IMG/VR virus record: IMGVR_UViG_3300021197_001360
Location: 1-30,262 of that record
DNA: 30,262 nt
Direction: 5' to 3' (one strand)
DNA from: a virus
A model generated the notes under the pieces. The model made no database searches. It had not been told where the DNA came from and worked only from the letters and a program-made list of their open reading frames with translations. This document shows, in pieces, positions 10,594 to 28,800 of the stretch. Every line of letters starts with the position of its first letter. Positions within the stretch are counted from its first letter, which is position 1. The position numbers and the translations under genes are program-made.

Positions 10594-10611
10594 TGAAAAG
10601 AATTTGACTGC

Positions 10612-10718
10612 CTGCCAGATAAGTGGCAGCTTGCCCCCGTCGGTCCTACCACATCGGTAGGGCCGTAGGGGACCAGAAGGTCCGAATAAACCAAAACCAA
10701 ATAGAAAGAATAAACATT
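10612..10718 (+). promoter_or_regulatory. Hairpin leader element d
   Basis: Three hairpins in a row: CTGCCA-gataag-TGGCAG (10612-10629), GGTCCTACC-acatc-GGTAGGGCC (10642-10664, one G-U), and GGACC-AGAA-GGTCC (10670-10683). GAATAAACCAAAACC then leads to the ATG at 10719. The layout equals leaders c and e; the stems differ in sequence. Confidence 0.6.
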
Positions 10719-11744
10719 ATGTCTGGAATTAAAGAAATCGATAGCGTCCTCATCCCACAAGGTTCCGAATACCGTATGTATCACGGTTTGGAGAAGGAGT
10801 CTGAAGGTGAGTTGATCACGCCCCGTGATGCGAAGGAGAAAGGCGTCTTCTTCCCGATCAGGATGGCAGACGTGTATGCCACCGTCAATGGGGAGTCGAT
10901 CCCGCTCGACAACCACAAGCACCTCATGGCAGATACTGCTGATGGTCTTGTGCCACTGCACATGGCGACGAAGAAGTATCAAAAGATCGAGAATGAGACC
11001 TTCGCGAGACCAGTAGTGTCCGCCCTCAGACAGTCTGCACCGGACTCGAAACTGTCCGCGATGGGGACTCTGAATGGTCTCAAGACATTCTTCATGTCGT
11101 TCAAGATGGACGATCACACCATCAATGGTGAGAAGCACAGTGGATACCTCAACGTAGTAGGGGGACACAACGGAACTGCGAACCGTGTGTTCCTTTCGGA
11201 CTTACGCTTGTGCTGCTCTAACAGCATCCACGCTGCCCTCGCCGGCAGTAAAGGATACATCGACCTAAAGGTCACCCACAGTGGCAACGTGGACATCAAG
11301 TGTGCCGATCTTACGAAGGACATCACTGGCCTGATCGAGCAGCGGAAACACTTCGCCGAAGCGATGGAGATCCTAGCCACTCAGAAGGTGGTCGAGCAGG
11401 ACATCTCAGCTATCGCTGCTGGATACTTCATCAAGAGTGCTGGCAAGGTGGACAAGTTCTCAACCCGAACCCTGAATGCCGTGTCCGGTATCACGGATCT
11501 GGCAATCAGAGGTAGGGGAAACAGTGGCGAGACCGTGTATGACGTTCTCAACGGCGCAACCGAATACTGGACATCCGGTGACGGTGTAGGGCGTGATACG
11601 TCTAGCTCTGCCAAGGCATACTCCAGCGAGTATGGCACTGCCGCGAAGCATAAGGTGAACTTCGCTGACTACCTGCTCACCTCACATGATGAGTCCTCTA
11701 TCGAGGAAGGTCATCGTGTTCTCACTGCTACCCTCAATGGGTAG
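10719..11744 (+). CDS. DUF932-like protein
   Basis: A 341-residue protein similar in layout to the DUF932 ('phage/plasmid-like') family. The N-terminal part (FPIRMADVYATVNGESIPLD) leads to a segment where a natural-type sequence YQKIENETFARPVVSALRQS is followed by a beta-rich core (LNGLKTFFMSFKMDDHTING, SGYLNVVGGHNGTANRVFLS), then DLRLCCSNSIHAAL, the counterpart of the C-x-N signature, and a helical C-terminal half. The family is common in phages and mobile elements with unknown molecular function. The start ATG 10719 was chosen because the upstream part would translate the hairpin leader d. It is the longest gene of the rightward block. Confidence 0.7.
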   Translation: MSGIKEIDSVLIPQGSEYRMYHGLEKESEGELITPRDAKEKGVFFPIRMADVYATVNGESIPLDNHKHLMADTADGLVPLHMATKKYQKIENETFARPVVSALRQSAPDSKLSAMGTLNGLKTFFMSFKMDDHTINGEKHSGYLNVVGGHNGTANRVFLSDLRLCCSNSIHAALAGSKGYIDLKVTHSGNVDIKCADLTKDITGLIEQRKHFAEAMEILATQKVVEQDISAIAAGYFIKSAGKVDKFSTRTLNAVSGITDLAIRGRGNSGETVYDVLNGATEYWTSGDGVGRDTSSSAKAYSSEYGTAAKHKVNFADYLLTSHDESSIEEGHRVLTATLNG

Positions 11745-12244: not shown

Positions 12245-15200
12245 TTAATCCTTCAGTTTGAAGTAGCGTGGTTCTTTATCACGCGCTTCAAACAGAGGGG
12301 CTATCCTATCTGAGTGTCCTCTTTCGATTATGTTCTGCATGAATCCTTTGTTCGGAGTCAGTCGGTCCATCACGCCTTGAATGATCATGGCAGACTTATC
12401 TTTACCGAACCCGAACTGGCGCATCGTAGCGACCTGTTTAGGTGCAGATATGCCGAGGCTTTCAAAGCCCCGTCCAACTCGATAGAGTTCTCTGTTGAGC
12501 TTCTTACGGCCTTCGTATTCCTCGTTATAGACATCCATGACATCGTCATCTGACATCGGCTTGTCGCTGTATAGAATAAACTTCTTGTCGTTCACCAACC
12601 GGATTCTACTCTGGTGTTCTCTAAGGAACCTACGGTATTGCTTCTCGACATCTACAGAGTGGAATCTTACAGGATAAGCTCCCTCAACAAATTCCCCTAT
12701 TGGAGAGTCCGTGAACTTATTGTAATCTCCACCGGAGGCTTCGTAAGCATCTACAGCATCCGTCAGGATACGTGGTGAGTAAGCAGTTTTCAGAGTGTAT
12801 AATAAACCCTTTCCTACAGACGATCCGAAGCCATCCACTTCGGGAATCCATATTGGTTTTCCGGTGGTGGAGTTCTCGTTGTTCATTGTATCATTGACTG
12901 CGCCAGCGAGGATCTGCTCATCAAGGTATTGATCGAAGATCGCTCCCTTCACAAAAGCTCCCACAGCACCGCTGAAGTTACCGCGTGATAGTGATTCAAA
13001 CGCGCGAGCGAATGGATCAGTGACGAGCGAGAATGGATTGAGGTATGTCAGGTCTACAGAAGTTAGGTCTTTGCCTTTGCCCCAGTAGTAGAAGCTATGC
13101 CCTCGCAAATAGCTTGGCATAGACTTGCGAAGGGCTTCGTCCTCTTCATCGCCGATACCAGATAGAGCAGCTAATGCGGCTGGAACCGCTAAGGATACCC
13201 CACCTAATACGGTGTAGAGACCGCGAAGTCTCTGCTTACCTCTTCTGACGATGTCTGGATTATCACTGGCCTTTTCTTCTTTAGCTAATTTGTAGGTGTT
13301 ATAAACAATCCTTGGAACCTCAGCCTTGAATCGGATGAATGGAGCGAACAACATTCCGTAGCTCGATTTACTCAACGCGCGCACGAGAGGGGGAGCCTGA
13401 CTCAGAGATTGGGCAGTCCTCTTGACGTTACTCGCAGCTAATCGTTTGAGTTCATTGTCTCCCATCTTACCAACTTTGGTGTTGGGGTGGTTAGCCTTAG
13501 CTTTACGAAGAACACTAAGCTCATGCTCATAGTAAGCTATCTTGTAAGCACCGTCTACCGAAGCGGACAAGCCAGTGAGCTTCTTTTCAGTTGCTGCAAT
13601 AAAGCTCTTACCTTTACCGACAACAGGAGCTTCATCTAGAATTTCATTAAGCCTAGAAGCAAAGTCTTTCTTACCTTCGCCTGAGTCTAGAAGCTCTTTA
13701 ATCATCCCTGCGCGTAGCTCGTCGCCGAAGACTCCGAGTGTAACGTATTCAGAAAGAACAGCATTTAGCTCGTCTGGATTATTCCACTGTTGCGTGGAGA
13801 ACTTTAGTGTATCTACTAATGTAGACCCCATCTTGTGTAATGGCATCCCATTAGCTGGCCCGAAGAACAAGATGTTACCTAAGATGTTTCGGAAGTAGAA
13901 ACCTACTGAGCCTAATGTTTTAAGCAACATAGACTTACCTGTAAGATTCTGAAGAGCCGAAGCAGTCTTAGACACTGCCTGTTCAGCAGTAGAGCTACCG
14001 GAGTTAGCGAAGCTAGGATTGATGATGTCTGCCAGATCATCAACTAAAGATTTCTCAGCATATACATTCGCGAACGGATCATTTCTATTCGCGTTAGACT
14101 TCATTTGAATGAAGTCAGGATACTTGCTAGGATCAGCAGCGTATGTTTTAGCATCCACTATGAATCCTTGGTCTTTACCTACCTTAACGATGTTGCTTCT
14201 AAACACTTGTTCAGCCGCTATCGTAGATACTGTAGCGTAAGTTCGTGCGATCAAATCAGTGCCTGTTTCGGCTCCATACTCTCCGAGAATTTCTCGTAGT
14301 TCTGGAGGTAAGTCTTTTCTCTTAGAGAAGTTCTTTGCGATCTTAGAATATCTATTGGTCGTTGTAGGAGTCCCTGACAGGATGCCTTCATACCGTTGGA
14401 TGAAAGCGTCTAAAGCTCTTTCTCCGTGAGTGCTACCAGTTCCTGCTTTCGCATGAGCTTTCCTAAGAGCAGCGTCTGCCGCATCGTCTGCTTCCGCATC
14501 CGACTTATTATCAGCTTTAGCAGCAGCGTAGGCTTTGTCCTTAACGTCTCCGTCGAAGAACACCATCGCAGCAGCTCGGGCCTTTGCGTATGTCGGATCT
14601 TCCCTGACTTTCTGAGCGTGTGTAGGGTCATTGAACATACGATAGCTTCTAGTAATGTAGAAGCCTCCTGTCTGATCAATGCGGACGCGAAGCTCATTAG
14701 ATATACCCGCTCCTTTAATCTTCTCCTGTATAGGTTGGATTAACTGAGTCCTCATCGAAGTTATCAAAGCCGCGAGTTTTGGAGACATCTGAGCGAGGTC
14801 GCTCAAAGCTTGAGAAGTCTCTAGGTTCCGAGCGTCGATTGCAGTTCTTTCTTTAAGATCAATCTCATCGTCGTGAGTTTGTTTAGACGCCGCTTTCTGA
14901 GTTTTCTTTTCTGCGCTAGTAAGTGTGTCGTCTGCTTCGATCACTTTAACTCGCGCCCTATGCTCGTTCTCTTTAGCGACATAAAATGTATTGCTGACAA
15001 GAGAGTTTTCATTATAGCCCTGTGCAGCAGCGATAGTGTCTAGAGTGGATTTATCCAAGATGATACCGTCCTCTTCGACGACATCATTAAATTTCTTGTG
15101 GAACGATTTAAGAATATGGATTCCACCTCTCTTAAACTCATCTCTCTGATCCAGCATAGATCTGATCGGTGATCCGAGATCTCCTTGGAAGATACGAGAT

Positions 15201-18200
15201 ATCATTCCTTCAGGTGACTTGTAAGTTTTATATTCAAACTGAGGGATCTCAAGGAGTTCGGGTATCATCGAGAAGTCATACTTATCTCCAGAAGAAACAG
15301 GATTGGGGTTACGACTAGAAGCAAACAGTGGGAAGTCTAAGCCAATCTCGCCGTCCTTATCCATAACAAGGTCATTATACTTGTCTTTAATTAACTGGAG
15401 ATCTTCTGGTGCGGAATCCTTTACTTCAGCACGGTAGTCTGTGATGGCCTCAGCAATCTTCTCGTTGGTCTTCTTTTGTAGAAGGAGTTTACCAGTATAG
15501 CCTTTGAAGTAAGCTTTCAAGGAAGGGCTTCCGTCAGTTAAATCAAAGACGTAATTAGCTTCCGTACCAGAACCCTCCCAGTTTCTCTTTGCGGACTTGT
15601 TTTCGGCAACCGTGCCGCCGTTCACAGCTTTGAAAAGATCAAACTCACCTTCTGGTTGAGTGCTTAGAAGATCTTTTGCCCTACGAGAAGACTCTTTATA
15701 GTAATCTGTAAGAAGGTTTTTGGCGTAGTTAACAACCTTTTGTTTGTCTACATCACTAAGTTGATTTAAGTAGGCCGCTTTCGCGTCTTCAGAAACGTCT
15801 TGTGGCTCAGAAGGACCAACACCAAACTCCTCTCTCAAGAAAGTAGCCTCAAGATCAGCCTCAAGATCAGCTTCTCCCAAAGCCTCTCTTAATTGCATAT
15901 CCCGTATTTGATCTACATCTTTAGTAGCTGGTTCTTGTAATATATCTAAAATCTCACCCCCATACCTAGGATTTGATACTTTAGAAGGGGTATCAGATGT
16001 AATAACATTTCCCAAATGTTTTATAATCGTTTCCTTCTCAAAAAATTCAGGTTCAAAAGCAGTCTTCATCCACGTAGAGTAACCCACCATACTCTGAGAG
16101 TAATCAGGTAACATCTTGCTAAGAGCAGCTTGTGCATCAACTCCATACTCAGCACCTACAAAATTTAATATCTGAGTCTTGGCTTTCTTTAGGATAACGC
16201 TTTGATAATCCCCACCCCCTATAGTTGTGAGTTGTTTAATCCCGTTCACATCCGCATCAGCAATAACTGCTAACATAAACTCTGCTGAGAACGACTTGCT
16301 CTTACTGTTCTCAACAGGAGTAACCATTAAGTCGATGTGAAGCTCGCCGTCTTCCAACAAAGTTACATCAACAGATGACAGTAGGATTTCTTTCTTTGTC
16401 TTATCGTCTATCCTTTGAGGATCAGTCACCTTGATCTTCATCTTTTCATCAGGCAAAAGATCTACTGAGATTCTCTGTCTGTCGGTAGATAAATTCTCAA
16501 TCGATTGCTTTATGCCTTTGTGGTCCATGCCCGTAATCGGGTTCGGGTTTTGGACTTCAACTGGCTCTGCATCATCATCTTCGACATCAACTATTGTCCT
16601 CCCATCGATAACTGCTAGTCGGGCCTTTCTCATTATCCGGTTGATAGAATCAACAGGCAAAGAGGAAGCCGCTAAAGTTATAGCCTGATCTACTGCTACA
16701 CCGTAGTCTTGAGCTTCGCCTAAGACATCAACCTCCATGAAGCGTTTGAACTCAGCCATCGTGGCTTCGGGGTTATCTGTATTGAACGGCGTGTCAGAAG
16801 TGACTGTGTTAAAGCCAGCGTTAATCAATAAGATCTCTCCGTGAATCTTACGAAGCATAGAGTCTAACGCCCCTGATCCCCCCTTCATCTCCCGCATAGC
16901 TGAGAGCCTGCTGAAGATACCTTTGAAGTATCTCGCAATCATCTGAAGAAGCGATGGATCGGATGACCAGAAATCTACGTCTTCTTCAGTAGTGAATCCG
17001 CGAGTCACTTTTTGTAAGTGCATGCGGAGCTTCTCTTCAGCTAATTGTCTTTTAAGAACTCGTATAGCGTTCTCTTGTTCGGGCGTAAGGTTCTCTTCAA
17101 CCGAAGATTCTAAGAGGGCAATCTTAGCCGCTTTCTCAGCAGGGTTTAAGTAATAGGTTCCCGCAATTTCTTTAAAGTTGTCGAGACTTAGTCGGTCGAT
17201 GTAGTTGTTAATCTCACGAGAAGTAAGTGAATTCCAAGAAGCAACGTGGGCTACTTCTTCACTGACAATACTCTCCACATACACACGCGCACCGATCTGG
17301 TCCATGTCTGCCACATTGGCCATGATGACGGAAGGATTAATGAAGATCCTATTAGCGATTGCATATGCTGGGGATGGTGTGCCTACATCCATACCCACTT
17401 CCATACCGTAAGGCATCCGGCTTTTAAGGTGGAGGATGAGAGCCTCCATCTCTCTTTGGTCACTCTTAGGGTCTTTGGTGTCCTGCCTGTAATCAGATAT
17501 TACAGAAGCAAAGTTCGCGTCTTGAGGATCGACTGGTCTCTGCGCCGTCGCCAATACAGGAGCTTCTACAGTGCCAAGGAATTCATACATCTTCGCATTC
17601 TCAGAAGCTGCTCTCATAGCTTCGTCTGCTACCTTCGCACCTACCTGAGAGATCGGGACTGGCTGTGTCCGCGCTACTGACTTACTCAAAGCAATGACAT
17701 CTTTTAGAGCCGCAGTGTATGTAGCAGCTTCCGACTTAGAGACCTTTCGGAACATCGATACCAGAGCCTCTAGAATTCTAGTGAAGAATCCTCGCTGTGC
17801 TTTAGGTGGGTCGAGATCTTTGATCAATGACTGTAGCTCAGGAGACAGGAGGAACTTAGCTAAGAACTCATCGAAGTTCTCAAAAGCGTCTTCCATGTAA
17901 GGATTAGGGTTTCCTTTGCGATACTCCCTTTCCGCTAGCTTGAACAATCCTTCCAGTCGCGTGCGTGCTGATCTTTGATTCGGGCTAAGGTTCTCAAGGG
18001 GTAAATTAGCTATGTTGTTTAAGAAGGCGTGAACATACTCTTCAAGAAGAGCATTCTCTAAACCGAGTCCGTTGCCCGTCTTTGTGTTGATCAACACACT
18101 GTGGCTACCGTCAGTCAAACGGGAATACTTACCTGCAAAATCAGCCTCTATCTGAGCGATCTCAAAACTTACCTGCCTGATGAAGTTTACATCCTCAAGT

Positions 18201-21200
18201 AAAAGATCCGCTACCAATCTATGTGATTCGCTGTCGCTAGTCTTAGCTATAGTTTGAATAGCTTTGACAACCGACTCAGGGTTCTGTGACTCTAGTCCTA
18301 GACGTTCAATCTCTTGAAGGTTTTCAGCTTCGTAGATTGCTTTCTGCTGACCGGATACGTGTGTCCGAGAGTATAGGGCCAACCTACCTGAGTTGATTGT
18401 CTTAGCGAAGTTAATCGCTTGTTTCTCAGACACGTCCTTACCTAAAGATTCTTTAAGCATAGACCTAAGTCCGGCAATAAACTGAGGGTCGCTGCTATCT
18501 AGATTAGATAAGTAGTTTAAGTAAACAGCCTGCCTAAACGATTCTTGCCCCGCCAACGCACTGTCAGAAAGAAGCTTCTTAAACTTGAGGGCTTGAGATC
18601 CTTCAGCAGACTCGTAGTTAGCAGACCTCAAAAATTCACCCATGACGCTCATTATATCAGAGGTCGTCATCTTTTTGACTTCCGCTATCTGTTTAGCTGA
18701 TGCGTTCGGGACAATGCCGTCGATGAAGAGTTCCTCTAATGACTGGCGTAGTTCTGGCGAATCATTGATTTCTTCTACGCTCAACTGCGATGCCGCTTTA
18801 GCACCTAAAGAAGCTTCACTAAGATCAACATCACGATCAAGTGGGCCAGATCCAGCAAAGGGGTCTTCGACTCTACCCCCATCAAGGTCTGTCATTCCTT
18901 CCGTCCTCATTCCTCCTACGAGAGAGTCACCAAATATTTCTGAATCTAGATTCAGATCAGAGAAGGTAGAAACAACAGAGTTCTGTTGAGCCATTTTCCT
19001 GCTCTTTTCTTGATCAACATACTTCCTAACCTTCTTGCTAAGAACAGAAGGGAATGTCGGCATCGCGTTGTTCTCAAACGAGCGGTTATTTAAAATCTGT
19101 TGGTTTACGAACTCATTAATAATATCTGCGTTGGACGCCCTTTCGTCCACCTTTACAAATCCTTTAAGAGCGGAAGCCAACAACTTCGTATTGACTTTCC
19201 CGTTCTCCACCATGTTGTCGATAGACAGTCTAGTAGCTATCTCTCTAGCAGCGAAGTTCCTAGCTCTCTTATCGGGAACAGCTAAGATATCTCCGGCTGA
19301 GAAGTTATACTTCGTGCTTTTAAGTAGCGTGTCCCTTACAGAGAACAAATTCAAAAGGAATAAGTATTCGTGATACGCCTCGAAAATAGGCGTCACCGCT
19401 CCTGTGTCAGACTTTTCAAGTAAGTCTAATCCGGTTTTCTTAGCCCCGTTTAGGTGGATCTTGACCATCTTGAAATCCTCCCCGCTCCTCGTGACGGCTT
19501 CTGTATAGTCTTTTAACGAATTACGGATGTCCCCAAAAGTAGATAGAGAATCTCCTACAGGAAGAGAGTAACCCCTTTCGTTAACCGGAGTAGCCCCGTG
19601 AGGCATTACCGTATCCTCCATACCTGATACGGTGAAAGGAAGTTTAGTTAAGTCATCGAGTCGGCTCTTGTCTACTTTAGCATTAACAATGCTATTCAAT
19701 GGACTACCTAAATGCTCTACACCTAAACCATCGGCGCGGGGCTTCTCTACGCGAGTGACGTAACCATCTACGACTTTGATCGATGGGTTAATGTCGAACA
19801 CGTTCACGGAATCGGGAACAGGGATTCGGATGTTGTGGGCTAACATCTGAGCCATCAAGACAGGGTCGTTATTGAATACACCATTACCCTCAGTATCTAA
19901 CTTACCTTTGATGGCTTTGCTCGATACTTTCTTTTGTGTGACAGGATCAAAATAAGTAATACGCTGGCCTGTGAAATCTTGTGTCTTCTGTTTAGAATCC
20001 AACTCGATCAACGGCCACTTACTATAGATCCTATTAGCGAGGTGGTCAGAAACTTTTGAAGTATCTTTTCTAGTTAACGGGACTCCGTGCTTCTGAGAAG
20101 AAGTCAACCTAACAGGGTAACCTGCATTCTCTAGTTCTAGAACTGCGTTAGCTTCTTGTAACTCTGAATCTGTAAGCTCTTTGCCTTTTTGGAAGAATGA
20201 AAGGTCAAGAGGGGGTGGAGTAAACGATTTAGACGCTTTAGGATACAGACCAGCTTTGTCACCGGAGAGCGCGGAGTCGGCTGCTGCTTTGACTTCTTCA
20301 GGATCTGCTTCGTTAAGTGCCTTTGTAATGTCGTCTTCAGTTACCTCTTCCGTAATTTCTTCCTGTTGTGCTTTAAGTTCTTTCTGTTGTGCTGGAACAC
20401 TTTCGAGTTCTAAGTAACCCTTTAAAGAATTTCTAATGTCTATTGCGGCTTCCTGCTCTTCTGTAAGATTTCCTTCCTCTGTTACACTATCTGCCTGAGC
20501 CGCTATCTCAATAATCTCTGGTATAGATTTAACCTTTAAAAAATCAGGGTAAATATTTGTAAACTCCTCAGTTAGAAACTGAAGGGACTCTGATTGTCCT
20601 TGTGCAGTTAAACCATTGAACAATGAACCAATGTCAGTTGGCCTATCCGTAACTTCTGGCTGAGTCTCTTGCGTAACTTCCGGTGTAACTTCCGGTGTAA
20701 CTTCCGGTGTAACTTCCGGTGTAACTTCCGGTGTAACTTCCGGTGTAACTTCCGGTGTAACTTCTGGCTGAGTCTTCTGCGTAGCTTCTGGTGCAGGCTT
20801 ATCCGATACTTGAAGCTCGGCCTCCTTAGCACTCAATCTAAAATACCTACCGAGAACGGCAGCGGAAATAGGACTACCTGTATCTTTTAGATTCAACTCT
20901 ACGTCTTTTGCAATCTCGTCGTATAAACGATCTACTTGAGCAAACTTACGTTGCTCGTTCATCTTCAACCTAGAACCAACTTTCTGGACAACAGGCGCAC
21001 CTGCTCCCATAATACCACCGATCATGGCAGCGTGGAATGTCTGCTCCAGCCGCTCTAATAGAGGGGTGTCTTGATCAAGGGCTGCGTCTTCTACGAAGCT
21101 ATTGACGAACTGGTCAAGCCCCTCTTCCATAGCTTCATCAGTAAAGTTCTTACCGACTGAGAACACTCTAGCCATCTTGCCGTTTTTACTCAGCGACCTA

Positions 21201-23422
21201 CTTATCGATTTCTTAATCGCTTTTGTCAGAGACTCGTTCTTAATGTTTTGTGAAAAACCAGATACTCTTTCAGTAACCGCTTTCAACTCTCGGAAAGACA
21301 TACCGCGTAGAAGAGCATCGTCGAGTCCACCACGCCCCATCAGACTAAAACCAGAAGTAATGACTCCTGTTATAGCTGCACTCATAAAGCCAGCACCTAA
21401 AGCCCGATCTCTGATCTCTTCTTCGGACAGATCAGTGTTCTCTCGGAGGTGGTTAGTAATACTACCATAAGTGGCAGCACCTGATCTGGTAGCTGCTGGA
21501 ACAAAAACAGCCGAGCTAGTCCCAATCTTCTCAGCCAAGTTACTGTTGAACGCTTTCATAACGTCGTTAGTTAACTTGCCGTCCCCTTTCTTCACAGCTT
21601 CCTCAATTACTTGAGCCAACGTCTGCGACCCTTTAGTTTTACCAAACCCTAAAGTAGTTATCTTCTTAGGGGCTGTTTTAATAGTGTGGGATATTACTCC
21701 CTTAGTAATCGCCTTAGCAGCCGCAAAAGAACCCGCCCGTGCAGATACATATGCAGCACCACCTACTCCAGCAGCAGGCGCAGTAACCCCTGCTAAAATA
21801 GCAGTGGCCGCTATATCAACCGTCATAGGGACTATGGTCTCAAAAATTTCTTGAGCATAACCATACTCTTGGTTGAACATCCTAGCTACTTCTCTCCGAT
21901 CGGAACTACGCTGCGCCGACTTAGCTAAGTAGTCGATAGCGACATCGTTGCCCATAGCCGCTGGAACAGCAGCAAGGAGAGTTCCAAAGCCGTCGATTAT
22001 AGATGCGCCGACGCCAGCGGCCTTTTCGGTGAACTCACTGTAGTTGTCTTCATCAGCTAAGAAATCATTTAAGATTTTGTGGTTCGCTTTACCATCTGCT
22101 CTTCCTTGCATCAAAGCAGCATTCCACTCGTCATCTACGCCACTCCTACTAAGAACTTTTGCGTAGCTCTCAAAGTTTTGATCTAATACCGCAGTTCTAT
22201 TTGCTTCTAAGATCTGTCGAGTTTCAGGCGAAAGGTCAGGTCTGGCCTTCAACATGTCGTTGAAAGCATCTTCATTAACCATCGCAGCAGAGTGGACAAC
22301 AGGAGTTCCGAAAGATGTCATCCTCAGATTCTTCCCAGCTTCTTCTCCTTCATAGAACTCAAACATCCCACTGTTCGTAGCCTTCTCCAAAATGATCTGG
22401 TTATAAGCAGCTTCAATCTCTTCTGCGTTATATTCTTCTCCTTGGTCGAGTCCGCTCCTGTTGTTCAGCTTTTCCGCAATAGACCGGATAGCTTCTGAAT
22501 GATCGACTTCCTGAGCAGCGTCTAACGCATCAATCCTCTCTTCAGCGTCTGAATCAAACAAACCACTAAAGAACTCTCCAACATCTTCAAACCTTCTTTT
22601 AGACCAATCCATTACCCCTTTGTCTTCCGACTCGGCTAGGTTCTTGGCGTGGGCTTCAATTTGGATTCCTAATTTAGAGGAGCCATCAACCAAAGAGTTG
22701 ATCATTCCTTTTGCCTCATTATACCGATTCAGCTTAAAACGAGGAACATTAGATCCAGCAGGGACTACTAATTGCTCTTGGGCAATGTAAGCATCAGACA
22801 ACGAAACATCTCCAGCGGAAGAAGCAGCTATCGCGTCACTAAGGTTCTCAAACTTTAAGGCAGAGTCACCCGCAATAATTCTCCGGTTCCCTTCCGCGTC
22901 TGTTGTAGCTATGAAAGGGAGATCTCCTGCACGGAGCATACGTTTCTTAACAACATCATATTGACGGTCAACAGCTTCGTCAGATTTAAGCTGTAATTCA
23001 TTGAAGGTATCGTCTTCGATAGAATAAGGATTCTCCGTCCTCATTCTGTTAGCCTCTTTGAACTCGGTGATAGTAGTCCAGTCAGGGTCGTCTTGGCTGA
23101 TCCTAGATTGGATCATATCCAATTTAGCTTCTTTAGAAATACCTTTAGGGGCGGTAAGTGACTTATAGCCCTCAAGGTCTCCCTGCTCTAGAGAACCTTC
23201 CTTAACTAATGACGAATACAATCCTGTTTGGATTTCTTCTTCCGCCTTAACCGACATCGCACCCGCATCGATATAAGTTTTACGTAGGTAATCCGCGTAA
23301 TTAACGCGGCTAGTCGTATCCTCTTCTTCGATTGGTCTTTTAGAAGACCAGTCCGAGTATTTCTCAAATTCAGGTTCGGCAGAACCAGTTAGTGAGCCAA
23401 CAAGCTTCTCGTATTCAGTCAT
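12245..23422 (-). CDS. Giant 3725-residue phage protein, probable ejection protein
   Basis: One unbroken frame of 11.2 kb, last gene of the leftward terminase/ejection block. ATG 23420-23422 begins MTEYEKLVGSLTGSAE. Hydrophobic Gly/Ala-rich segments lie near residues 466-490, 521-567, 676-706 and 793-815. Seven or eight TPEV units follow (~889-916). Two zincin-like motifs occur, LEEYVHAF (~1794) and SEEVAHVA (~2055). Later come a coiled-coil region, a membrane segment YTVLGGVSLAVPAALAALSG (~3400) and a C-terminal region (SVDLTYLNPFSLVTDPFARA) reminiscent of the 'large polyvalent protein' LPD38/39 domains. In podoviruses the largest internal virion protein (T7 gp16) lies at this place and passes DNA through the host envelope. 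I infer the same role, though a DarB-type co-injected defence protein is possible. Start and end are clear; no frameshift is seen. Confidence 0.75.
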   Translation of the reverse strand: MTEYEKLVGSLTGSAEPEFEKYSDWSSKRPIEEEDTTSRVNYADYLRKTYIDAGAMSVKAEEEIQTGLYSSLVKEGSLEQGDLEGYKSLTAPKGISKEAKLDMIQSRISQDDPDWTTITEFKEANRMRTENPYSIEDDTFNELQLKSDEAVDRQYDVVKKRMLRAGDLPFIATTDAEGNRRIIAGDSALKFENLSDAIAASSAGDVSLSDAYIAQEQLVVPAGSNVPRFKLNRYNEAKGMINSLVDGSSKLGIQIEAHAKNLAESEDKGVMDWSKRRFEDVGEFFSGLFDSDAEERIDALDAAQEVDHSEAIRSIAEKLNNRSGLDQGEEYNAEEIEAAYNQIILEKATNSGMFEFYEGEEAGKNLRMTSFGTPVVHSAAMVNEDAFNDMLKARPDLSPETRQILEANRTAVLDQNFESYAKVLSRSGVDDEWNAALMQGRADGKANHKILNDFLADEDNYSEFTEKAAGVGASIIDGFGTLLAAVPAAMGNDVAIDYLAKSAQRSSDRREVARMFNQEYGYAQEIFETIVPMTVDIAATAILAGVTAPAAGVGGAAYVSARAGSFAAAKAITKGVISHTIKTAPKKITTLGFGKTKGSQTLAQVIEEAVKKGDGKLTNDVMKAFNSNLAEKIGTSSAVFVPAATRSGAATYGSITNHLRENTDLSEEEIRDRALGAGFMSAAITGVITSGFSLMGRGGLDDALLRGMSFRELKAVTERVSGFSQNIKNESLTKAIKKSISRSLSKNGKMARVFSVGKNFTDEAMEEGLDQFVNSFVEDAALDQDTPLLERLEQTFHAAMIGGIMGAGAPVVQKVGSRLKMNEQRKFAQVDRLYDEIAKDVELNLKDTGSPISAAVLGRYFRLSAKEAELQVSDKPAPEATQKTQPEVTPEVTPEVTPEVTPEVTPEVTPEVTPEVTQETQPEVTDRPTDIGSLFNGLTAQGQSESLQFLTEEFTNIYPDFLKVKSIPEIIEIAAQADSVTEEGNLTEEQEAAIDIRNSLKGYLELESVPAQQKELKAQQEEITEEVTEDDITKALNEADPEEVKAAADSALSGDKAGLYPKASKSFTPPPLDLSFFQKGKELTDSELQEANAVLELENAGYPVRLTSSQKHGVPLTRKDTSKVSDHLANRIYSKWPLIELDSKQKTQDFTGQRITYFDPVTQKKVSSKAIKGKLDTEGNGVFNNDPVLMAQMLAHNIRIPVPDSVNVFDINPSIKVVDGYVTRVEKPRADGLGVEHLGSPLNSIVNAKVDKSRLDDLTKLPFTVSGMEDTVMPHGATPVNERGYSLPVGDSLSTFGDIRNSLKDYTEAVTRSGEDFKMVKIHLNGAKKTGLDLLEKSDTGAVTPIFEAYHEYLFLLNLFSVRDTLLKSTKYNFSAGDILAVPDKRARNFAAREIATRLSIDNMVENGKVNTKLLASALKGFVKVDERASNADIINEFVNQQILNNRSFENNAMPTFPSVLSKKVRKYVDQEKSRKMAQQNSVVSTFSDLNLDSEIFGDSLVGGMRTEGMTDLDGGRVEDPFAGSGPLDRDVDLSEASLGAKAASQLSVEEINDSPELRQSLEELFIDGIVPNASAKQIAEVKKMTTSDIMSVMGEFLRSANYESAEGSQALKFKKLLSDSALAGQESFRQAVYLNYLSNLDSSDPQFIAGLRSMLKESLGKDVSEKQAINFAKTINSGRLALYSRTHVSGQQKAIYEAENLQEIERLGLESQNPESVVKAIQTIAKTSDSESHRLVADLLLEDVNFIRQVSFEIAQIEADFAGKYSRLTDGSHSVLINTKTGNGLGLENALLEEYVHAFLNNIANLPLENLSPNQRSARTRLEGLFKLAEREYRKGNPNPYMEDAFENFDEFLAKFLLSPELQSLIKDLDPPKAQRGFFTRILEALVSMFRKVSKSEAATYTAALKDVIALSKSVARTQPVPISQVGAKVADEAMRAASENAKMYEFLGTVEAPVLATAQRPVDPQDANFASVISDYRQDTKDPKSDQREMEALILHLKSRMPYGMEVGMDVGTPSPAYAIANRIFINPSVIMANVADMDQIGARVYVESIVSEEVAHVASWNSLTSREINNYIDRLSLDNFKEIAGTYYLNPAEKAAKIALLESSVEENLTPEQENAIRVLKRQLAEEKLRMHLQKVTRGFTTEEDVDFWSSDPSLLQMIARYFKGIFSRLSAMREMKGGSGALDSMLRKIHGEILLINAGFNTVTSDTPFNTDNPEATMAEFKRFMEVDVLGEAQDYGVAVDQAITLAASSLPVDSINRIMRKARLAVIDGRTIVDVEDDDAEPVEVQNPNPITGMDHKGIKQSIENLSTDRQRISVDLLPDEKMKIKVTDPQRIDDKTKKEILLSSVDVTLLEDGELHIDLMVTPVENSKSKSFSAEFMLAVIADADVNGIKQLTTIGGGDYQSVILKKAKTQILNFVGAEYGVDAQAALSKMLPDYSQSMVGYSTWMKTAFEPEFFEKETIIKHLGNVITSDTPSKVSNPRYGGEILDILQEPATKDVDQIRDMQLREALGEADLEADLEATFLREEFGVGPSEPQDVSEDAKAAYLNQLSDVDKQKVVNYAKNLLTDYYKESSRRAKDLLSTQPEGEFDLFKAVNGGTVAENKSAKRNWEGSGTEANYVFDLTDGSPSLKAYFKGYTGKLLLQKKTNEKIAEAITDYRAEVKDSAPEDLQLIKDKYNDLVMDKDGEIGLDFPLFASSRNPNPVSSGDKYDFSMIPELLEIPQFEYKTYKSPEGMISRIFQGDLGSPIRSMLDQRDEFKRGGIHILKSFHKKFNDVVEEDGIILDKSTLDTIAAAQGYNENSLVSNTFYVAKENEHRARVKVIEADDTLTSAEKKTQKAASKQTHDDEIDLKERTAIDARNLETSQALSDLAQMSPKLAALITSMRTQLIQPIQEKIKGAGISNELRVRIDQTGGFYITRSYRMFNDPTHAQKVREDPTYAKARAAAMVFFDGDVKDKAYAAAKADNKSDAEADDAADAALRKAHAKAGTGSTHGERALDAFIQRYEGILSGTPTTTNRYSKIAKNFSKRKDLPPELREILGEYGAETGTDLIARTYATVSTIAAEQVFRSNIVKVGKDQGFIVDAKTYAADPSKYPDFIQMKSNANRNDPFANVYAEKSLVDDLADIINPSFANSGSSTAEQAVSKTASALQNLTGKSMLLKTLGSVGFYFRNILGNILFFGPANGMPLHKMGSTLVDTLKFSTQQWNNPDELNAVLSEYVTLGVFGDELRAGMIKELLDSGEGKKDFASRLNEILDEAPVVGKGKSFIAATEKKLTGLSASVDGAYKIAYYEHELSVLRKAKANHPNTKVGKMGDNELKRLAASNVKRTAQSLSQAPPLVRALSKSSYGMLFAPFIRFKAEVPRIVYNTYKLAKEEKASDNPDIVRRGKQRLRGLYTVLGGVSLAVPAALAALSGIGDEEDEALRKSMPSYLRGHSFYYWGKGKDLTSVDLTYLNPFSLVTDPFARAFESLSRGNFSGAVGAFVKGAIFDQYLDEQILAGAVNDTMNNENSTTGKPIWIPEVDGFGSSVGKGLLYTLKTAYSPRILTDAVDAYEASGGDYNKFTDSPIGEFVEGAYPVRFHSVDVEKQYRRFLREHQSRIRLVNDKKFILYSDKPMSDDDVMDVYNEEYEGRKKLNRELYRVGRGFESLGISAPKQVATMRQFGFGKDKSAMIIQGVMDRLTPNKGFMQNIIERGHSDRIAPLFEARDKEPRYFKLKD
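20674..20757 (-). repeat. Seven 12-bp tandem repeats encoding TPEV
   Basis: Seven perfect copies of TAACTTCCGGTG (plus strand) occur in a row, with degenerate copies on both sides. In the giant gene they encode Thr-Pro-Glu-Val units, an extended acidic linker that divides the hydrophobic N-terminal quarter from the rest. Perfect identity suggests recent expansion. Confidence 0.95.
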
Positions 23423-23458: not shown

Positions 23459-24430
23459 TTAATCAAATGCCGTAGATAATTTACTTTGAGGTCCGCCGTT
23501 AGGTAGACTAGAAGCGATTTTAGAACTTAATGCTCCTAAAGCTGCGCGTCTTAATTCTTGATCGCTCATATGATTTAGAAGATCTTTTACTTTTACGGCG
23601 GGGTATTTAATAGGGTCTAAGATAGTGAAGACAGACTGTAAAGTATCTTTATCTTCACGTTCTAATGAAAATTTAGGTTTCTCTCCTTTCCCATCGTAAG
23701 AAGCTTGTATGTCTTCAGACGGACCTATTTTAGAAACTAGATCATAATAATGCTTATAATTTGTAAGACTTTCTTTTCGATCAGCGTCTTGTGCTTCCTC
23801 TTGGGCTTTTAGAGTAGAAGCTACTAGTCTTGACTTAGCCGCTTCAGCTCCACTCTGTAAAGCTCGTTCCATAGGCGTGACTTCATCATCCATTGAGGCT
23901 AATTCATTAACCAAATCAATATCACCAGCACTTGCAGCTATTTTTATAGCGTCGAGGTATTTGTTCTGCTCTTTTAGTCTATCTTGCTCTGCTTTAGTTT
24001 CTATTGATTTTTGTGAATCAATAGCTTTAAAAGCTGCTCCGAACTTACTAGATAGAATTGGGCTGTAAGAGATTACTGAAGAGTAATCTACGAGATTCCT
24101 GTTTAACTGCTCCGACTTCTGTAAAGGACTCAAGGTCTCATCATCAAGGATGCCGTTAACCAAAGAATCAATTTTAGGGGAAAACTCTAAAGCTTCGTTC
24201 TGCCTCTGGGCGTCCCTTCTAGCTTTCTGGAGATCCATCTTTTGTTTTTCGTAAGACAGTTCTTGCTGCCGCATCGCCATTGTGTGCTGCTGCATCTTCA
24301 TCGTATGCGTCTGCATAGGCATAATAACCTCTTGGCGATACTTCATCGCTTCGTCGAAACCTCTTTCGCCAGCGAGCATTGGGAAATACTGCTGGCGGAG
24401 TGGTGCGATGTCTTGGTTGTAATTAATCAT
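23459..24430 (-). CDS. Coiled-coil protein, probable internal virion protein
   Basis: A 323-residue protein beginning MINYNQDIAPLRQQYFPMLA. Residues ~30-80 are a Met/Gln-rich helix (QTHTMKMQQHTMAMRQQELS) and the middle is a charged helix. The C-terminal part (LLNHMSDQELRRAALGALSS) is helical. It lies between the 496-residue and 3725-residue genes, with a 5-nt gap before it and 36 nt after. In T7-like gene order the ejection proteins gp14, gp15 and gp16 lie side by side, and this would be the middle member. That is by position and helix content only. Met/Gln-rich amphipathic helices are common in proteins that cross or line a membrane tube. No SD at a usable distance. Confidence 0.65.
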   Translation of the reverse strand: MINYNQDIAPLRQQYFPMLAGERGFDEAMKYRQEVIMPMQTHTMKMQQHTMAMRQQELSYEKQKMDLQKARRDAQRQNEALEFSPKIDSLVNGILDDETLSPLQKSEQLNRNLVDYSSVISYSPILSSKFGAAFKAIDSQKSIETKAEQDRLKEQNKYLDAIKIAASAGDIDLVNELASMDDEVTPMERALQSGAEAAKSRLVASTLKAQEEAQDADRKESLTNYKHYYDLVSKIGPSEDIQASYDGKGEKPKFSLEREDKDTLQSVFTILDPIKYPAVKVKDLLNHMSDQELRRAALGALSSKIASSLPNGGPQSKLSTAFD

Positions 24431-24435
24431 ATAAA

Positions 24436-25926
24436 CTATAAGCCTCTGGGACGTGGGCCTTTGGGTTTTTTTACGTAGTCGCTCTTACGGTAAATACCTT
24501 CGCTACGATCTTCGATACCATTACCATTTGAATCCCTAAATTCCGCAGTCTGATATTCACTGACCATCATTTCGTTACCGTCTTTATCATAATAAACAGG
24601 CCCTTGCCCTCTCTTTCTCACTTCATCAAGTGAAATCGCGTTACCCTTTAGGTCATAAAGGAACTGGGACGGGTCTATGCTTGTGGGTTGGGCTTCTTTG
24701 GGGTTTTGGTTTCGTGTTTTATCTAAAGGAGATTGGTATTTTTCAAACGCTTTGGGTTTTTCGGGGTTTTGGTTTCGTGTTTTATCTAAAGGAGATTGAT
24801 ATTTCCCCACCTTTTTTGGCTGCTGGATCGAGTCGTTCGATTTTGGCTCCCCCACCCCCATCGCGTCAACTATGTTTTTAGAACCCGCAGCAATATCTGC
24901 TTGCTTTTTTCGTTCCTCTTCTTGTTTTGCTATTTCTTTACTAGCGTCAATTTTACCTAGAAGTCTTCCCGCCCTAAGTGCGGGAGTATCTATAGACGGC
25001 TCATTCGCACGAACCATCTCACCAGCCATTGCCATTTGTTCAGCGGCTCTGCCGTAACCTTGACGGCGGAGTCTACGTGAAGCCCTACGGGCCTTACCGC
25101 TCTTAGGTCCAATTGCGCGAGATGGTTGACGTAAGGGAGACCCGCTACCTATTTTATAGTTAGGGTCTTGCATGGCGGCAAGTGCGCCAAGTCCTGTGCC
25201 GTATTGCCGCTGGAAAATTACGTTCTGTGCTGCTTCTTTTGAAGAAGAAGTCGGGGCAGCAGTAGTAAAATTTGAAGGCTTAATTGAATTTTTTTTCATC
25301 GTTGCCTCAAAAGCTTCACCAGAAACACCTTCGTATTTGCCAAGTTGTTCCTTAGCTTTTGCGTATATCTCTGGAGTCAAGCGGGATGGGTCGTTTGGAT
25401 GTTTCTTTGAGAGACTTTTCAGCTCATTAAAGAAATCTTGACGCATAGTCGATTTCTCATCAAAAGCAGATTGATCACCAGATTCACCTTTAGGAGTCCT
25501 GTATATTCCTTTAAAAAATTCAGATTTTTCTTTAGGGTCTATTACAGGTGATTCAGGGAAACCCTTAGCCTCAGCACGTAGGCCAATCTGAGCGTCTTCC
25601 ATAGAAGACAATAAAGCTCCCGCTGGTTTAGGGTCACCTTCCTCAGCTTGCGGGAACAGAGACATACCCGAAAAAGTGTTCCTAGCTTCTTGAAGTTTTG
25701 AGGGGGAGGCGTCACGCTCAGGGGCAAGCTGGGCGAGTCTTTCTTCAGCTTTCTTTTTATCCGAAGCCTCTAATTCTTCGGGAGTTTGAGGGACTTCCAA
25801 TTGAGCAGCGCGTTTGGCTCCAGCAATCTGGCCCGCTGCCTTAATTAGTTCTTTCTCTTTATCAGTTAGCTCATATTCTTTTTTTTTGCTAACAGTTTTT
25901 TTCTGTGTGTCAGTTAACTCAGCCAT
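24436..25926 (-). CDS. Virion protein candidate with tandem repeat and calcium-loop-like motif
   Basis: A 496-residue protein, start ATG 25926 (MAELTDTQKKTVSKKKEYEL), two bases after the stop of the preceding gene. It is mostly polar and probably disordered in part. A basic patch (GKARRASRRLRRQGYGRAAE) lies in the second half. A 21-residue unit beginning KYQSPLDKTRNQNP occurs twice in a row (DNA period 63 bp). Near the C-terminus FRDSNGNGIEDRSEG resembles a calcium-binding DxNxNGxxD loop as in dockerins and thrombospondin type 3 repeats. By position it is the first of three ejection-type proteins after the terminase. No family was recognised, and an assembly factor is an alternative. Confidence 0.65.
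   Translation of the reverse strand: MAELTDTQKKTVSKKKEYELTDKEKELIKAAGQIAGAKRAAQLEVPQTPEELEASDKKKAEERLAQLAPERDASPSKLQEARNTFSGMSLFPQAEEGDPKPAGALLSSMEDAQIGLRAEAKGFPESPVIDPKEKSEFFKGIYRTPKGESGDQSAFDEKSTMRQDFFNELKSLSKKHPNDPSRLTPEIYAKAKEQLGKYEGVSGEAFEATMKKNSIKPSNFTTAAPTSSSKEAAQNVIFQRQYGTGLGALAAMQDPNYKIGSGSPLRQPSRAIGPKSGKARRASRRLRRQGYGRAAEQMAMAGEMVRANEPSIDTPALRAGRLLGKIDASKEIAKQEEERKKQADIAAGSKNIVDAMGVGEPKSNDSIQQPKKVGKYQSPLDKTRNQNPEKPKAFEKYQSPLDKTRNQNPKEAQPTSIDPSQFLYDLKGNAISLDEVRKRGQGPVYYDKDGNEMMVSEYQTAEFRDSNGNGIEDRSEGIYRKSDYVKKPKGPRPRGL
24700..24804 (-). repeat. 63-bp-period direct repeat
   Basis: A 42-bp block at 24700-24741 recurs at 24763-24804 with one mismatch, in frame, within the 496-residue gene. 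It encodes the KYQSPLDKTRNQNP unit twice. The high DNA identity shows a recent duplication. Confidence 0.9.
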
Positions 25927-25928
25927 AA

Positions 25929-26222
25929 TTACCAAAGTTTTTTGCAAGCCCAATAGCGTGCGGTTGTTTTGTCTTTTGCAGTTTTGCAGTTATGTCTGGC
26001 TCTGAAATTAGCCCGACGCTTGGGATTCTTGTGTTTTGTGAAATCGCTGTAATCGCGGTGTCCGTAGCCAACTTTCTTGATCTTGTCTCCTTCTTTACCT
26101 AATACGACGAATTTCTTCTTCGATCCTTTAGGGGCGCGTTTAGGCTTATTGAAGCCAGCGAACGTCTCGCCGTGGTATTGGATACGGCCAGACGGTAGCC
26201 GTTTGAATCTTTTATTCGCCAC
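25929..26222 (-). CDS. Small conserved basic phage protein (RARH...ARYW motif), GTG start
   Basis: A 97-residue protein from GTG 26222 (read MANKRFKRLPSGRIQYHGET...). It is rich in Lys, Arg and Gly; the C-terminus holds FRARHNCKTAKDKTTARYWA, then CKKLW. From memory, this RARHxC...ARYWxC block occurs in small proteins of many marine phages and algal viruses, with unknown function; the Cys/His pattern suggests a zinc site. No ATG exists in the frame, so the start must be GTG or TTG. A promoter (26230-26258) puts its -10 only 7 nt before the GTG, supporting that start; a longer TTG version would begin inside the hairpin terminator. It lies between terminase and the ejection-type genes and heads that transcript. 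Confidence 0.7.
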   Translation of the reverse strand: MANKRFKRLPSGRIQYHGETFAGFNKPKRAPKGSKKKFVVLGKEGDKIKKVGYGHRDYSDFTKHKNPKRRANFRARHNCKTAKDKTTARYWACKKLW

Positions 26223-26229
26223 GCGGCAT

Positions 26230-26258
26230 AATCTACCAGAATCCAACGAAACTGTCAA
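26230..26258 (-). promoter_or_regulatory. Sigma70-type promoter, 7 nt from a GTG start
   Basis: Read leftward: TTGACA (26258-26253), 17 nt, TAGATT (26235-26230) with TG one base before it (extended -10). The GTG start follows after 7 nt, so the transcript would be leaderless or nearly so. CCGTTGACAG around the -35 is identical to the capsid promoter. Confidence 0.6.
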
Positions 26259-26283
26259 CGGAAGGGAATTTTGGGGAGCAGTC

Positions 26284-26360
26284 AAAAAAACTTTTCTCTC
26301 CGGCTCTTAGTATCTTATTATTTATAATAAGATACTAAAGGCTTAGGAGAAAAGTTTTTA
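26284..26360 (-). terminator. Long hairpin terminator, copy B
   Basis: Arms TTAGTATCTTATTAT (26308-26322) and ATAATAAGATACTAA (26325-26339) pair perfectly, inside outer arms ACTTTTCTC and GAGAAAAGT. Read leftward it starts at the terminase stop codon and ends in seven T. It is nearly identical to the hairpin at 7269-7344, in the same orientation. Confidence 0.8.
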
Positions 26361-28148
26361 ACTGAGTAAGCTGGTATCGGGATTATTGAGTGCGCCACTA
26401 AGCGTTTTAATCGTAACCTGTTTCCTGTATCCTTTACCGTTCTCCTCTTTCGGTGGGTCAATGGCCACGAGTCCCATACGTTGGCGAGCGCAATCGAGAG
26501 CCAGAAATGCGGCATCCGCTAAGTCAGGTGAGCGACCGAACCGAGCTTTGAACTCCGGTTTTGATTCGATTTTTACTCTGAGCGTGCCTGTTCCCTTCGT
26601 CATATCGTAGTTTCTGGCGCACATTTCCTTAGCTAAATCCGCAGCTACCCCATATATCTGCTGTGTCCGAAGCAGTTCTTTGCCTACAAACCAGAGTTCT
26701 GACACTCTATTAGTATAGAGTTCTGCTCCCGTAAGCTGGCTATTCATGCTGACTCTCTTATCGGAAGCTTTTCCGCCAAAGGTAACACGCATGAACGAAC
26801 TCTCCCACTCGCCAGCGAGAACGTCGCAGAATGGTGCGCCTGCTCCGGTCGAGTCGAGAGCCACATTGTTAGCAGAGATATTCCTACGTTTGCAGTGGTC
26901 GATAATCTGATGCACGATCTGGTAGGTGCGCGGAACCGCTTTGTTTGTGGCATCATCATTGAGGTGTATGGCTTCTCCTAACTTGCAGACGTATTGGCCA
27001 TTTCGAGCGTAGCCAACTTCAGCGGTATACATAATCGTTCTGTCGCCGCCGTTAGTGAACGCCGGATCGATTCCGGCAACGGTGGTTGGTTTCTCCGCCC
27101 AATCGACTTCGCCCATCGCACCTCCTTTGATAAGCTCTGCTTCTGAGTAGATTCCAGTGGTTTCGTCGCTATCGAAGAAGACGGCGCGGACCATTCGCAT
27201 GTATCCTCTAGATTCCGGCCCCAATAACGCCCTGTCTTCTGCCAGCTTCTCAGCGGTCGGTAGCCAAGGAAACTTAACTTCTCCTAGCGTAATATTAGGG
27301 CTGCGCTCCCCATCGAGTCGGAGGTAGTGGCCTTTCCATTTCGTGGTCCACCTGTCAGCGGTTTGTGTATCTATGGACTCCCAGCCCTTCTTTGGCTCTG
27401 ACCAAACACCGAAAGCGTCGAAGCGGCTATTCGGGTTAGACATACCGATCATCTGGAAAAACGGGTTTTTAGATAGGTTAGTCAGACCAGCCTGCAATAT
27501 ACTTTCAGAAAGTTCTGAAAGTTCATCACCAATCATAATTACCCGCTTCTGCTTGATTCCGATGAATTTGCCGATTGCCTCTCGCGTCTTCGACTTCTCC
27601 GCCGCGATAAGTGAAAGCCCAGCTCTTTCGATAAGAGTGCCGTTCTCATCAACATACGCTGCGTTACCGATTGAGTCCCTTATCTTAATAGGCGCACCAT
27701 CGATCACCGATAGCAAAGACATGACTGAACCCCAAATCCTCTTTCGTGCTTCCCGTAAGGTGGTAGAGGTCATCAGGACTAGTGTATCTCGTGGCTGGCA
27801 GAGCCATTGGACGATACCCCACGCGGCCATCGTATGTGATTTACCACTACTGGCGGAACCACCAATCGCTAGATACTTGTGTTTGATGGCCGACCTAATC
27901 ATCTGCTCTGCCCAAGGATGGCGGACCATCATCTTCTCCGGCAGTTCTTCTCTATTCCATAGTTCATCGCAGATCCTCCAAAAATAAAACTCCTTAGCCT
28001 TATCGTTAGGGTGGTGGGCAAATCCATACAATAAAGAGGTCAGTAGACTTGTTGGCGGAATTATCAACCCACCTACGTCCATCTGCTTGGATTGTGGGTC
28101 GATGCGTGGCTCTAGAACGCGCTTGCGCTTGTCTGCTTCTGAGGGCAT
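26358..28148 (-). CDS. terL: Terminase large subunit (DNA packaging motor)
   Basis: A 596-residue protein, start ATG 28148 (MPSEADKRKRVLEPR). It joins an ATPase and a nuclease domain. Walker A is GGSASSGKS at 96-104. Walker B is VIMIGDE at 203-209, with the catalytic Glu. The RNase H-like nuclease shows Asp residues at GIDPAFTNGGD (D361), VALDSTGAG (D432) and SPDLADAAF (D542 or D545). It pumps DNA through the portal into the procapsid and cuts it. The gene begins the right-hand leftward block and ends in the long hairpin at 26284-26360. It diverges from the probable small subunit with only 10 bp between the start codons, so its promoter must lie inside that gene; I found no good -35/-10 pair there. 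No SD. Confidence 0.95.
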   Translation of the reverse strand: MPSEADKRKRVLEPRIDPQSKQMDVGGLIIPPTSLLTSLLYGFAHHPNDKAKEFYFWRICDELWNREELPEKMMVRHPWAEQMIRSAIKHKYLAIGGSASSGKSHTMAAWGIVQWLCQPRDTLVLMTSTTLREARKRIWGSVMSLLSVIDGAPIKIRDSIGNAAYVDENGTLIERAGLSLIAAEKSKTREAIGKFIGIKQKRVIMIGDELSELSESILQAGLTNLSKNPFFQMIGMSNPNSRFDAFGVWSEPKKGWESIDTQTADRWTTKWKGHYLRLDGERSPNITLGEVKFPWLPTAEKLAEDRALLGPESRGYMRMVRAVFFDSDETTGIYSEAELIKGGAMGEVDWAEKPTTVAGIDPAFTNGGDRTIMYTAEVGYARNGQYVCKLGEAIHLNDDATNKAVPRTYQIVHQIIDHCKRRNISANNVALDSTGAGAPFCDVLAGEWESSFMRVTFGGKASDKRVSMNSQLTGAELYTNRVSELWFVGKELLRTQQIYGVAADLAKEMCARNYDMTKGTGTLRVKIESKPEFKARFGRSPDLADAAFLALDCARQRMGLVAIDPPKEENGKGYRKQVTIKTLSGALNNPDTSLLS

Positions 28149-28151
28149 AAT
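28123..28151 (+). promoter_or_regulatory. Candidate promoter for the small-terminase gene
   Basis: TTGCGC (28123-28128), 17 nt, CATAAT (28146-28151), then 7 nt to the ATG at 28159. The -10 differs from consensus at one base. It lies within the start of the large terminase gene and overlaps its start codon on the other strand, so the two genes would compete. Confidence 0.45.
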
Positions 28152-28158
28152 TAAGTCG

Positions 28159-28800
28159 ATGTCTGAAAAACCTATACGGGAGTGCGAGGCTGAAGCCTTG
28201 CGCCTTAACAAAGAAGGTTACAGTAATAGTGCGATTGGTCAACACATTGGGGTCCACCGCAATACAATACGTAAGTGGTTAAAGAAACACGGAGTCGCCG
28301 CTAAGATGAACGGGGACATAGTAGACGGTAAAGTTCTCGACAACCTGATACATAATACAGACATCAAAGATGAACATCTGAAACCAGATGCTGACAAGGA
28401 CCAGCTTAAAGAGGATGTTGAAGAACACTTCAATGAGACGATGAGTTCAGCTATTGTGGAAGAAAGGTTCCGCGCATCCAAACAAGAGGACGTTACCCTC
28501 AACGAAATCGCGGAGGCGCAGAACTCTCCGGCTGATAAATACCAACACTACATCGCCGCAGCCGGAATTAAACTTCTACGCGATTCGATGAAGGGGTTAC
28601 GTGGCCCGAGAACGATTAGGGAGATGTCAGAACTAGACCAGCTCATTAGGCGTAACTTAGGTCTTAACGCCAAGACTGGAGGGGGAGCTAGCAAGATGCA
28701 GATTGATATCTCTATCTTGAACAACTCTAAAGCAGATAAAGGCGGCGGCGCGATTAGGCAGAAAAAAACGATTGACGCGGAGACCGGAAACGAGATTTAA
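28159..28800 (+). CDS. Probable terminase small subunit (HTH protein)
   Basis: A 213-residue protein. The N-terminus (residues 6-45, CEAEALRLNKEGYSNSAIGQ then HIGVHRNTIRKWLKKHG) is a helix-turn-helix of the resolvase/homeodomain-like type. The middle is acidic and helical and would oligomerise. The region LRDSMKGLRGPRTIREMSEL resembles the part of small terminases that follows the HTH, and the C-terminus is basic and flexible. Small terminases bind the packaging site and regulate the large subunit. The fit by domain order and location is good, but a transcription regulator is not excluded. The start ATG 28159 lies 10 bp from the large terminase start on the other strand. The longer reading from 28087 would overlap terL and is unlikely. 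No SD. Confidence 0.65.
   Translation: MSEKPIRECEAEALRLNKEGYSNSAIGQHIGVHRNTIRKWLKKHGVAAKMNGDIVDGKVLDNLIHNTDIKDEHLKPDADKDQLKEDVEEHFNETMSSAIVEERFRASKQEDVTLNEIAEAQNSPADKYQHYIAAAGIKLLRDSMKGLRGPRTIREMSELDQLIRRNLGLNAKTGGGASKMQIDISILNNSKADKGGGAIRQKKTIDAETGNEI

Follow-up and report, generated by a model that had tools for sequence, protein, structure and literature searches.

The virion RNA polymerase (vRNAP) of phage N4, gp50, is composed of an N-terminal domain (NTD, residues 1-906), a linker (907-1006), an RNA polymerase (RNAP) domain (1007-2101), a zincin domain designated C1 (2124-2375) and a helical region designated C2 (2376-3500) (PMC12633501). The absence of cysteine from N4-type vRNAPs has already been reported, with passage through the tail suggested as the reason (PMC3915230). 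In Pseudoalteromonas phage Y3 (vB_Pun_Y3) the giant protein is of the classical polyvalent kind and combines ParB-like, ART, methyltransferase, LPD1 and LPD5 domains; Iyer et al. have proposed that polyvalent proteins are processed by their MPTase domains (PMC5512222). For gp123 of Cellulophaga phage phi18:3, the annotation as virion structural protein derives from experimental MS/MS proteomics. The window analysed here, a virus record of 30,262 bases that is likely a fragment, encodes a giant protein which we judge, with considerable confidence, to be an ejected internal protein of the virion, packaged in the head and built on the N4 vRNAP chassis but carrying a different payload and a duplicated zincin-like domain.

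Open reading frame and gene order

The giant is encoded on the minus strand by a frame of 3725 codons with an ATG start (12245..23422), yielding a product of 3725 aa and 410 kDa. An unbroken frame of 3725 residues had been noted in the original prediction, with the strand unstated; it is open from the ATG and is kept in relatives. The chance of a frame of this length at the given base composition is approximately 1e-98. Relatives spanning most of the giant were found in seven viral contigs, with best-segment identities of 66-74%. Full-length relatives numbered three (3615, 3680 and 3753 aa), and later scans added two further contigs in which a relative was partly covered. The open reading frame is real.

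Related contigs exhibited a common order, comprising the large terminase gene (TerL, 617-618 aa), a small gene, a gene of 300-500 aa, a gene of 323-338 aa, the giant and a block on the opposite strand. In the window the corresponding genes, all on the minus strand, are TerL (26358..28211, phrog_2), a 118-aa DUF5754 protein (25929..26285, phrog_7595), a 505-aa protein (24436..25953) and a 323-aa protein (23459..24430). The giant had been assigned the last place in a terminase-small-496-323-giant series, and this order (TerL-118-505-323-giant) is maintained in related contigs, the 496-residue neighbour being the 505-aa ORF read from an internal ATG. The further suggestion that the giant may represent a merger of several ejection proteins was not borne out, as two partner genes are still present as separate units immediately upstream. 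No significant family match was found for the 505-aa and 323-aa proteins; synteny and cysteine content mark both as probable ejection partners, while the DUF5754 protein is probably not ejected. The latter, the neighbour of TerL, also weakly resembled phrog_220 ('minor head protein and DNA pilot').

Between the giant and the portal-position genes lies a block on the opposite strand that includes a DUF932 gene (8244-11744); in relatives, too, the giant is followed by a block of similar kind. The portal (4560-6818), scaffold (3098-4279) and capsid (1592-2932) labels were given by order and size only, since these genes had no significant family match; a portal query also returned no match. A 15-bp repeat of 3.5 copies (7868-7919) was observed upstream of the portal-position genes, where a short ORF nearby may not be a gene. 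Recognised tail genes are absent from the contig, and a short tail is presumed. No relative of the giant was found in two scans of bacterial genomes, hence no host was assigned. Searching 50,697 phage records by tblastn with the N-terminal 1560 aa matched nothing, and Pfam, PHROGs and PDB sequence searches using the giant singly or four-sequence profiles gave no significant match.

Domain organisation and similarity to N4 vRNAP

Comparison of four full-length relatives delimited conserved blocks at aa 1-880, 1050-2290 and 2650-3725, with a variable stretch (2300-2640) between the last two. Pfam detected no significant domain in the giant nor in four distant family members. Profile-profile comparison, which the original prediction had put forward as a check, was more informative: hhalign yielded two matches to N4 gp50, an ejected protein, one to the NTD (E 1e-4) and one to C1 (E 1e-12), where hhalign E-values here and below are pairwise and uncorrected for the several dozen comparisons made. 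Alignment of the whole chains gave both matches, in collinear order.

The first match involves a part of the N-terminal domain (aa ~370-820; 20963..22315, minus strand), which aligned with N4 NTD 34-450 over 373 columns with an E-value of 1.3e-4 and a modest Prob of 54-71. The score of 48.3 was approximately 8 s.d. above that of block-shuffled decoys (20.2 ± 3.5, maximum 26). Hydropathy analysis located three hydrophobic segments within this domain (aa 468-486, 530-548 and 674-692) and one near the C-terminus (3405-3423). Hydrophobic segments had been predicted at both ends of the protein, and they are present, although those of the N-terminal domain are not at the N-terminal tip. The domain is followed by a low-complexity linker (aa ~870-1045; 20288..20815, minus strand) that is weakly conserved among relatives and holds the TPEV repeat, recognised from the outset; in the DNA encoding it, a 12-bp unit is repeated perfectly 7.7 times (20673-20764). 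Elsewhere in the window a 12-bp repeat of 8.2 perfect copies (1147-1245) corresponds to a KAAP repeat in a 330-aa gene, a linker-making unit like that of TPEV.

The middle of the giant, originally described as a long coiled coil, consists of a conserved domain (aa 1045-1725) and then two zincin-like domains. The conserved domain, here termed M (~680 aa; 18248..20290, minus strand), stands in the position of RNAP in N4 gp50 and matched neither N4 RNAP nor Pfam. Scanning with M recovered approximately 50 further, distant relatives in viral contigs. M and the C-terminal module described below shared one open frame in all 18 records tested, some of them near-duplicates, with frames of up to 4828 aa; the size of the giant is therefore not unique.

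Flanking domains of the same kind and order as those of N4 gp50, a similar length and the lack of cysteine would also be expected if the giant were a true virion RNA polymerase, its RNAP having diverged past detection in the middle domain or being spread over the middle and variable regions. We regard this as improbable. Four Pfam vRNAP models match N4 and not one of them matches the giant, the slot from linker to zincin measures ~680 aa compared with ~1095 in N4, and a middle-domain profile built from 42 sequences scored no better against N4 RNAP than did its own reversal. By the sequence and profile tests made, the giant is not a member of the vRNAP family but a variant of the vRNAP/polyvalent class.

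Zincin-like domains

The second match to N4 vRNAP involves the first zincin-like domain, Z1 (aa ~1725-1960; 17543..18250, minus strand), a homologue of C1. A deep family profile aligned with C1 at Prob 96.9-97.7 and E 1e-10 to 1.5e-12, with a score of 88 as against 22 when reversed; a shallow profile of aa 1725-1984 gave an E-value of 2.6e-6, far above decoys, and comparison with polyvalent zincins bearing HEVFH gave Prob 95 and E 2.8e-8. A shallow hhalign comparison of the N4 C-terminal domain with the zincin region had placed the motif out of register and was replaced by the motif-centred and deep profiles. At the position where HExxH is expected, Z1 possesses EEYVH (aa 1794-1798; 18029-18043), which is kept in all close relatives, while 21 of the 42 family members have HExxH there. 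Downstream of the motif, NFDEFLAKF aligned with NEFMAWGL of N4.

A second zincin-like domain, Z2 (aa ~1975-2140; 17003..17500, minus strand), is proposed from an AF2 segment, VIA rows, the distribution of motifs and weak hhalign matches to zincin families. Its motif is EEVAH (aa 2055-2059; 17246-17260), with HExxH in some relatives. Structure prediction, also envisaged originally, was of partial use: the confidence of the AF2 models was low or middling, and the one built for the entire zincin region with four sequences was poor, at a pLDDT of 46.6, leaving only the Z2 segment usable (pLDDT mostly 60-86, fair confidence). Zincins and the metalloenzyme YbeY were prominent among the VIA rows over Z2, with low Z values of 4-5.5, which supports, short of proof, a zincin fold. 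A profile of Z1 and Z2 together gave a third match, to N4 gp50 2452-2774 (E 1.3e-3), where a further zincin-like domain, degenerate in form, may be concealed in N4.

The first motif positions of Z1 and Z2 were E and E in 15 of the 42 family sequences, H and E in 15, H with a lost Z2 motif in six, E and H in five and E with no Z2 in one, H at both sites being found in none; these counts represent a pattern and not a statistical test, because the sequences are related and some are near-identical. Judged by homology, a zincin-type metallopeptidase domain is present, and to this extent the proposal that the giant carries enzyme domains for delivery to the host is upheld. Proteolysis by the giant is uncertain, because Glu replaces the first zinc-ligand His at both sites. 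A region variable among relatives (aa about 2270-2690; 15353..16615, minus strand) separates the zincin-like domains from the C-terminal module.

C-terminal module

The C-terminal helical module (C-module; aa 2890-3658; 12449..14755, minus strand) is common to polyvalent and virion proteins. In tblastn searches aa ~3030-3650 resembled the C-terminus of the phage Y3 protein (E 1e-10) and matched the C-termini of proteins from Cellulophaga phages phi18:3, phi19:3 and phi13:2 and pelagiphage HTVC027P; pairwise BLAST widened the similarity to aa ~2880-3540. A profile led by Y3 identified more than 540 relatives in viral contigs. At 77 such loci the module was located near the C-terminus of ORFs mostly of 1200-4000 aa, many with one HExxH upstream. 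There is no Pfam or NCBIfam model for the C-module, while phrog_22602, 'virion structural protein', takes in 49 of 53 members, the group of the giant itself falling outside.

An AF2 model of the module (pLDDT 64.6) matched phi19:3 and many 'large polyvalent protein' models in BFVD, with E-values down to 6e-23. Against the PDB nothing significant was retrieved above a helical-repeat background; N4 vRNAP was not among the matches listed, which does not imply a different fold. The C-module profile scored 43.7 against N4 C2, compared with 19.9 ± 2.4 for decoys (maximum 26.5), at a pairwise E-value of only ~1e-3. A second profile (A7) reached only 31.7 against a maximum decoy of 28.3 and a profile of the giant only (A2) gave no match, so that a relation to C2 is suggestive only. 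Kinship of the C-module with T7 gp16 was not detected (score 16.8, E 0.61).

Two database entries bearing on this family were noted. Y3 proteins WPJ21802 and WPJ21803 (OR779980, 11850-13800) share an identical stretch of ~310 residues, as if a polyvalent giant had been split by tandem duplication, either real or assembly-made. StenR_269 (OR838459, 10351-17163), labelled 'putative virion-associated RNA polymerase', possesses the C-module and no vRNAP Pfam domain; the label may reflect shared delivery parts.

Sixteen C-module giants were found to carry, among them, ART-PolyVal, MuF_C (nuclease), LPD1, LPD5, LPD23, InPase, ddrB-ParB and methyltransferase domains. With such relatives, the giant might instead be a polyvalent effector of host takeover, its tandem zincins processing the chain itself or cutting host proteins after entry and any scaffold or ejection role being secondary. 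The MPTase processing proposal (PMC5512222) and the retention of HExxH at one site in some relatives are in keeping with this. It is nevertheless considered rather unlikely, given that EExxH occupies both sites in the giant and 14 other family sequences and that Pfam found in the giant none of the catalogued effector or LPD domains, several of which may occur in one chain.

Absence of cysteine

The giant contains no cysteine in 3725 residues, where 36.9 would be expected from the other genes of the window (P ~8e-17). Other residues are far less skewed, His and Trp occurring at 0.46 and 0.66 of background. Cysteine is also absent from the close relatives (eight sequences, the giant counted), from the 505-aa and 323-aa neighbours, from five N4-type vRNAPs, from N4 gp51 and gp52 and T7 gp15 and gp16, and from the homologous giants of Y3, phi18:3, HTVC027P and others. 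The 77 giants bearing the C-module contain nine cysteines in 158,946 residues (0.006%), compared with 0.912% for the 390 further ORFs on those contigs. At gene positions 1-5 upstream of the giant the cysteine content was 0.04, 0.07, 0.30, 0.65 and 1.06%, respectively. This near-absence, which the giant shares with the two or three genes preceding it, and the graded return upstream are usable as a signature of ejected proteins.

The absence of cysteine alone is no proof of ejection, because other structural proteins are also cysteine-poor: the 98-, 330- and 393-aa structural genes of the window, the 330- and 393-aa genes being in scaffold position, likewise encode none. The 505-aa protein, the 323-aa protein and the giant constitute the likely ejected set, since all three have no cysteine while the DUF5754 protein has three and TerL has seven. 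Neither a review of ejection proteins nor the 2025 paper on the N4 structure stated the absence of cysteine as a general rule, in a coverage of the literature that was not exhaustive.

The ejection-type character ascribed to the cluster is very probably correct, in view of a cysteine-free 505-323-giant set, a C-module found in a verified virion protein and an NTD and zincin matching N4 vRNAP. A long helical protein among late genes could alternatively be a tail or tape-measure-like structural protein never ejected into the cell, and phrog_19395 (tail fibre) weakly matches part of the C-module. That match involves only 1 of 53 members, however, and the C-module goes with enzymatic payloads; together with the homology to the NTD and C1 of N4 vRNAP and a complete absence of cysteine like that of ejected proteins, this renders a purely structural role very improbable.

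Proposed role of the giant

By homology with N4 gp50, the giant as an ejected internal virion protein would be packaged in the head and would exit as an unfolded thread, passing the portal and tail either before the DNA or together with it, a passage made with no residues capable of forming disulphides. Its chassis would comprise a membrane-type NTD, a floppy linker, a payload, a zincin-like domain and the large helical C-module, the payload slot being occupied by a different domain of ~680 aa with no detectable RNA polymerase. The 505-aa and 323-aa proteins may form a trans-envelope conduit with the NTD of the giant; the NTD would meet the inner membrane and the remainder, payload included, would be delivered to the cytoplasm, as has been proposed for N4 gp50.

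The chassis family occurs in dozens of viral contigs and the C-module is common to hundreds. We put at roughly even the chances of a broader proposal, that these proteins represent an uncatalogued class of phage giants (3.2-4.8 thousand aa) with the N4 vRNAP chassis, a non-RNAP payload and tandem zincins with at most one HExxH, and that cysteine absence is a general signature of ejected proteins. If so, the lack of cysteine over thousands of residues would offer a simple test for injected phage proteins, which are otherwise hard to recognise from sequence.

Comparison with known systems

T7 gp16 resembles the giant in being cysteine-free and in its ejection role, which for the giant is a probable one; it differs in that its sequence does not match the C-module, and Pfam detected no transglycosylase domain in the giant. 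Gp123 of phi18:3 (Pachyviridae, phrog_22602) shares a homologous C-module, lacks cysteine and follows a series of structural genes, and is itself verified in virions by MS/MS. However, gp123 is only 1935 aa in length, is matched only over the C-module and belongs to phrog_22602, which does not include the group of the giant. Polyvalent proteins (Iyer et al. 2017), such as the Y3 giant, have in common with it a homologous C-module, a late-gene context and a zincin-type domain, but the giant has no detected ART, ParB-like, LPD, methyltransferase or nuclease domains.

The giant differs from N4 gp50 (Schitoviridae) in having no detectable RNAP, in the other ~680-aa domain found in that position, and in a duplicated zincin with EExxH at both sites. 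Both are nonetheless giant single chains, free of cysteine, with a membrane-type NTD, a linker of ~100 aa, a zincin-like C1 and a large helical C-terminus, and both are encoded by the last gene of an ejection cluster, a probable one in the case of the giant. This resemblance suggests a wider delivery chassis, open to other cargo, of which the giant vRNAP of N4 would be one form.
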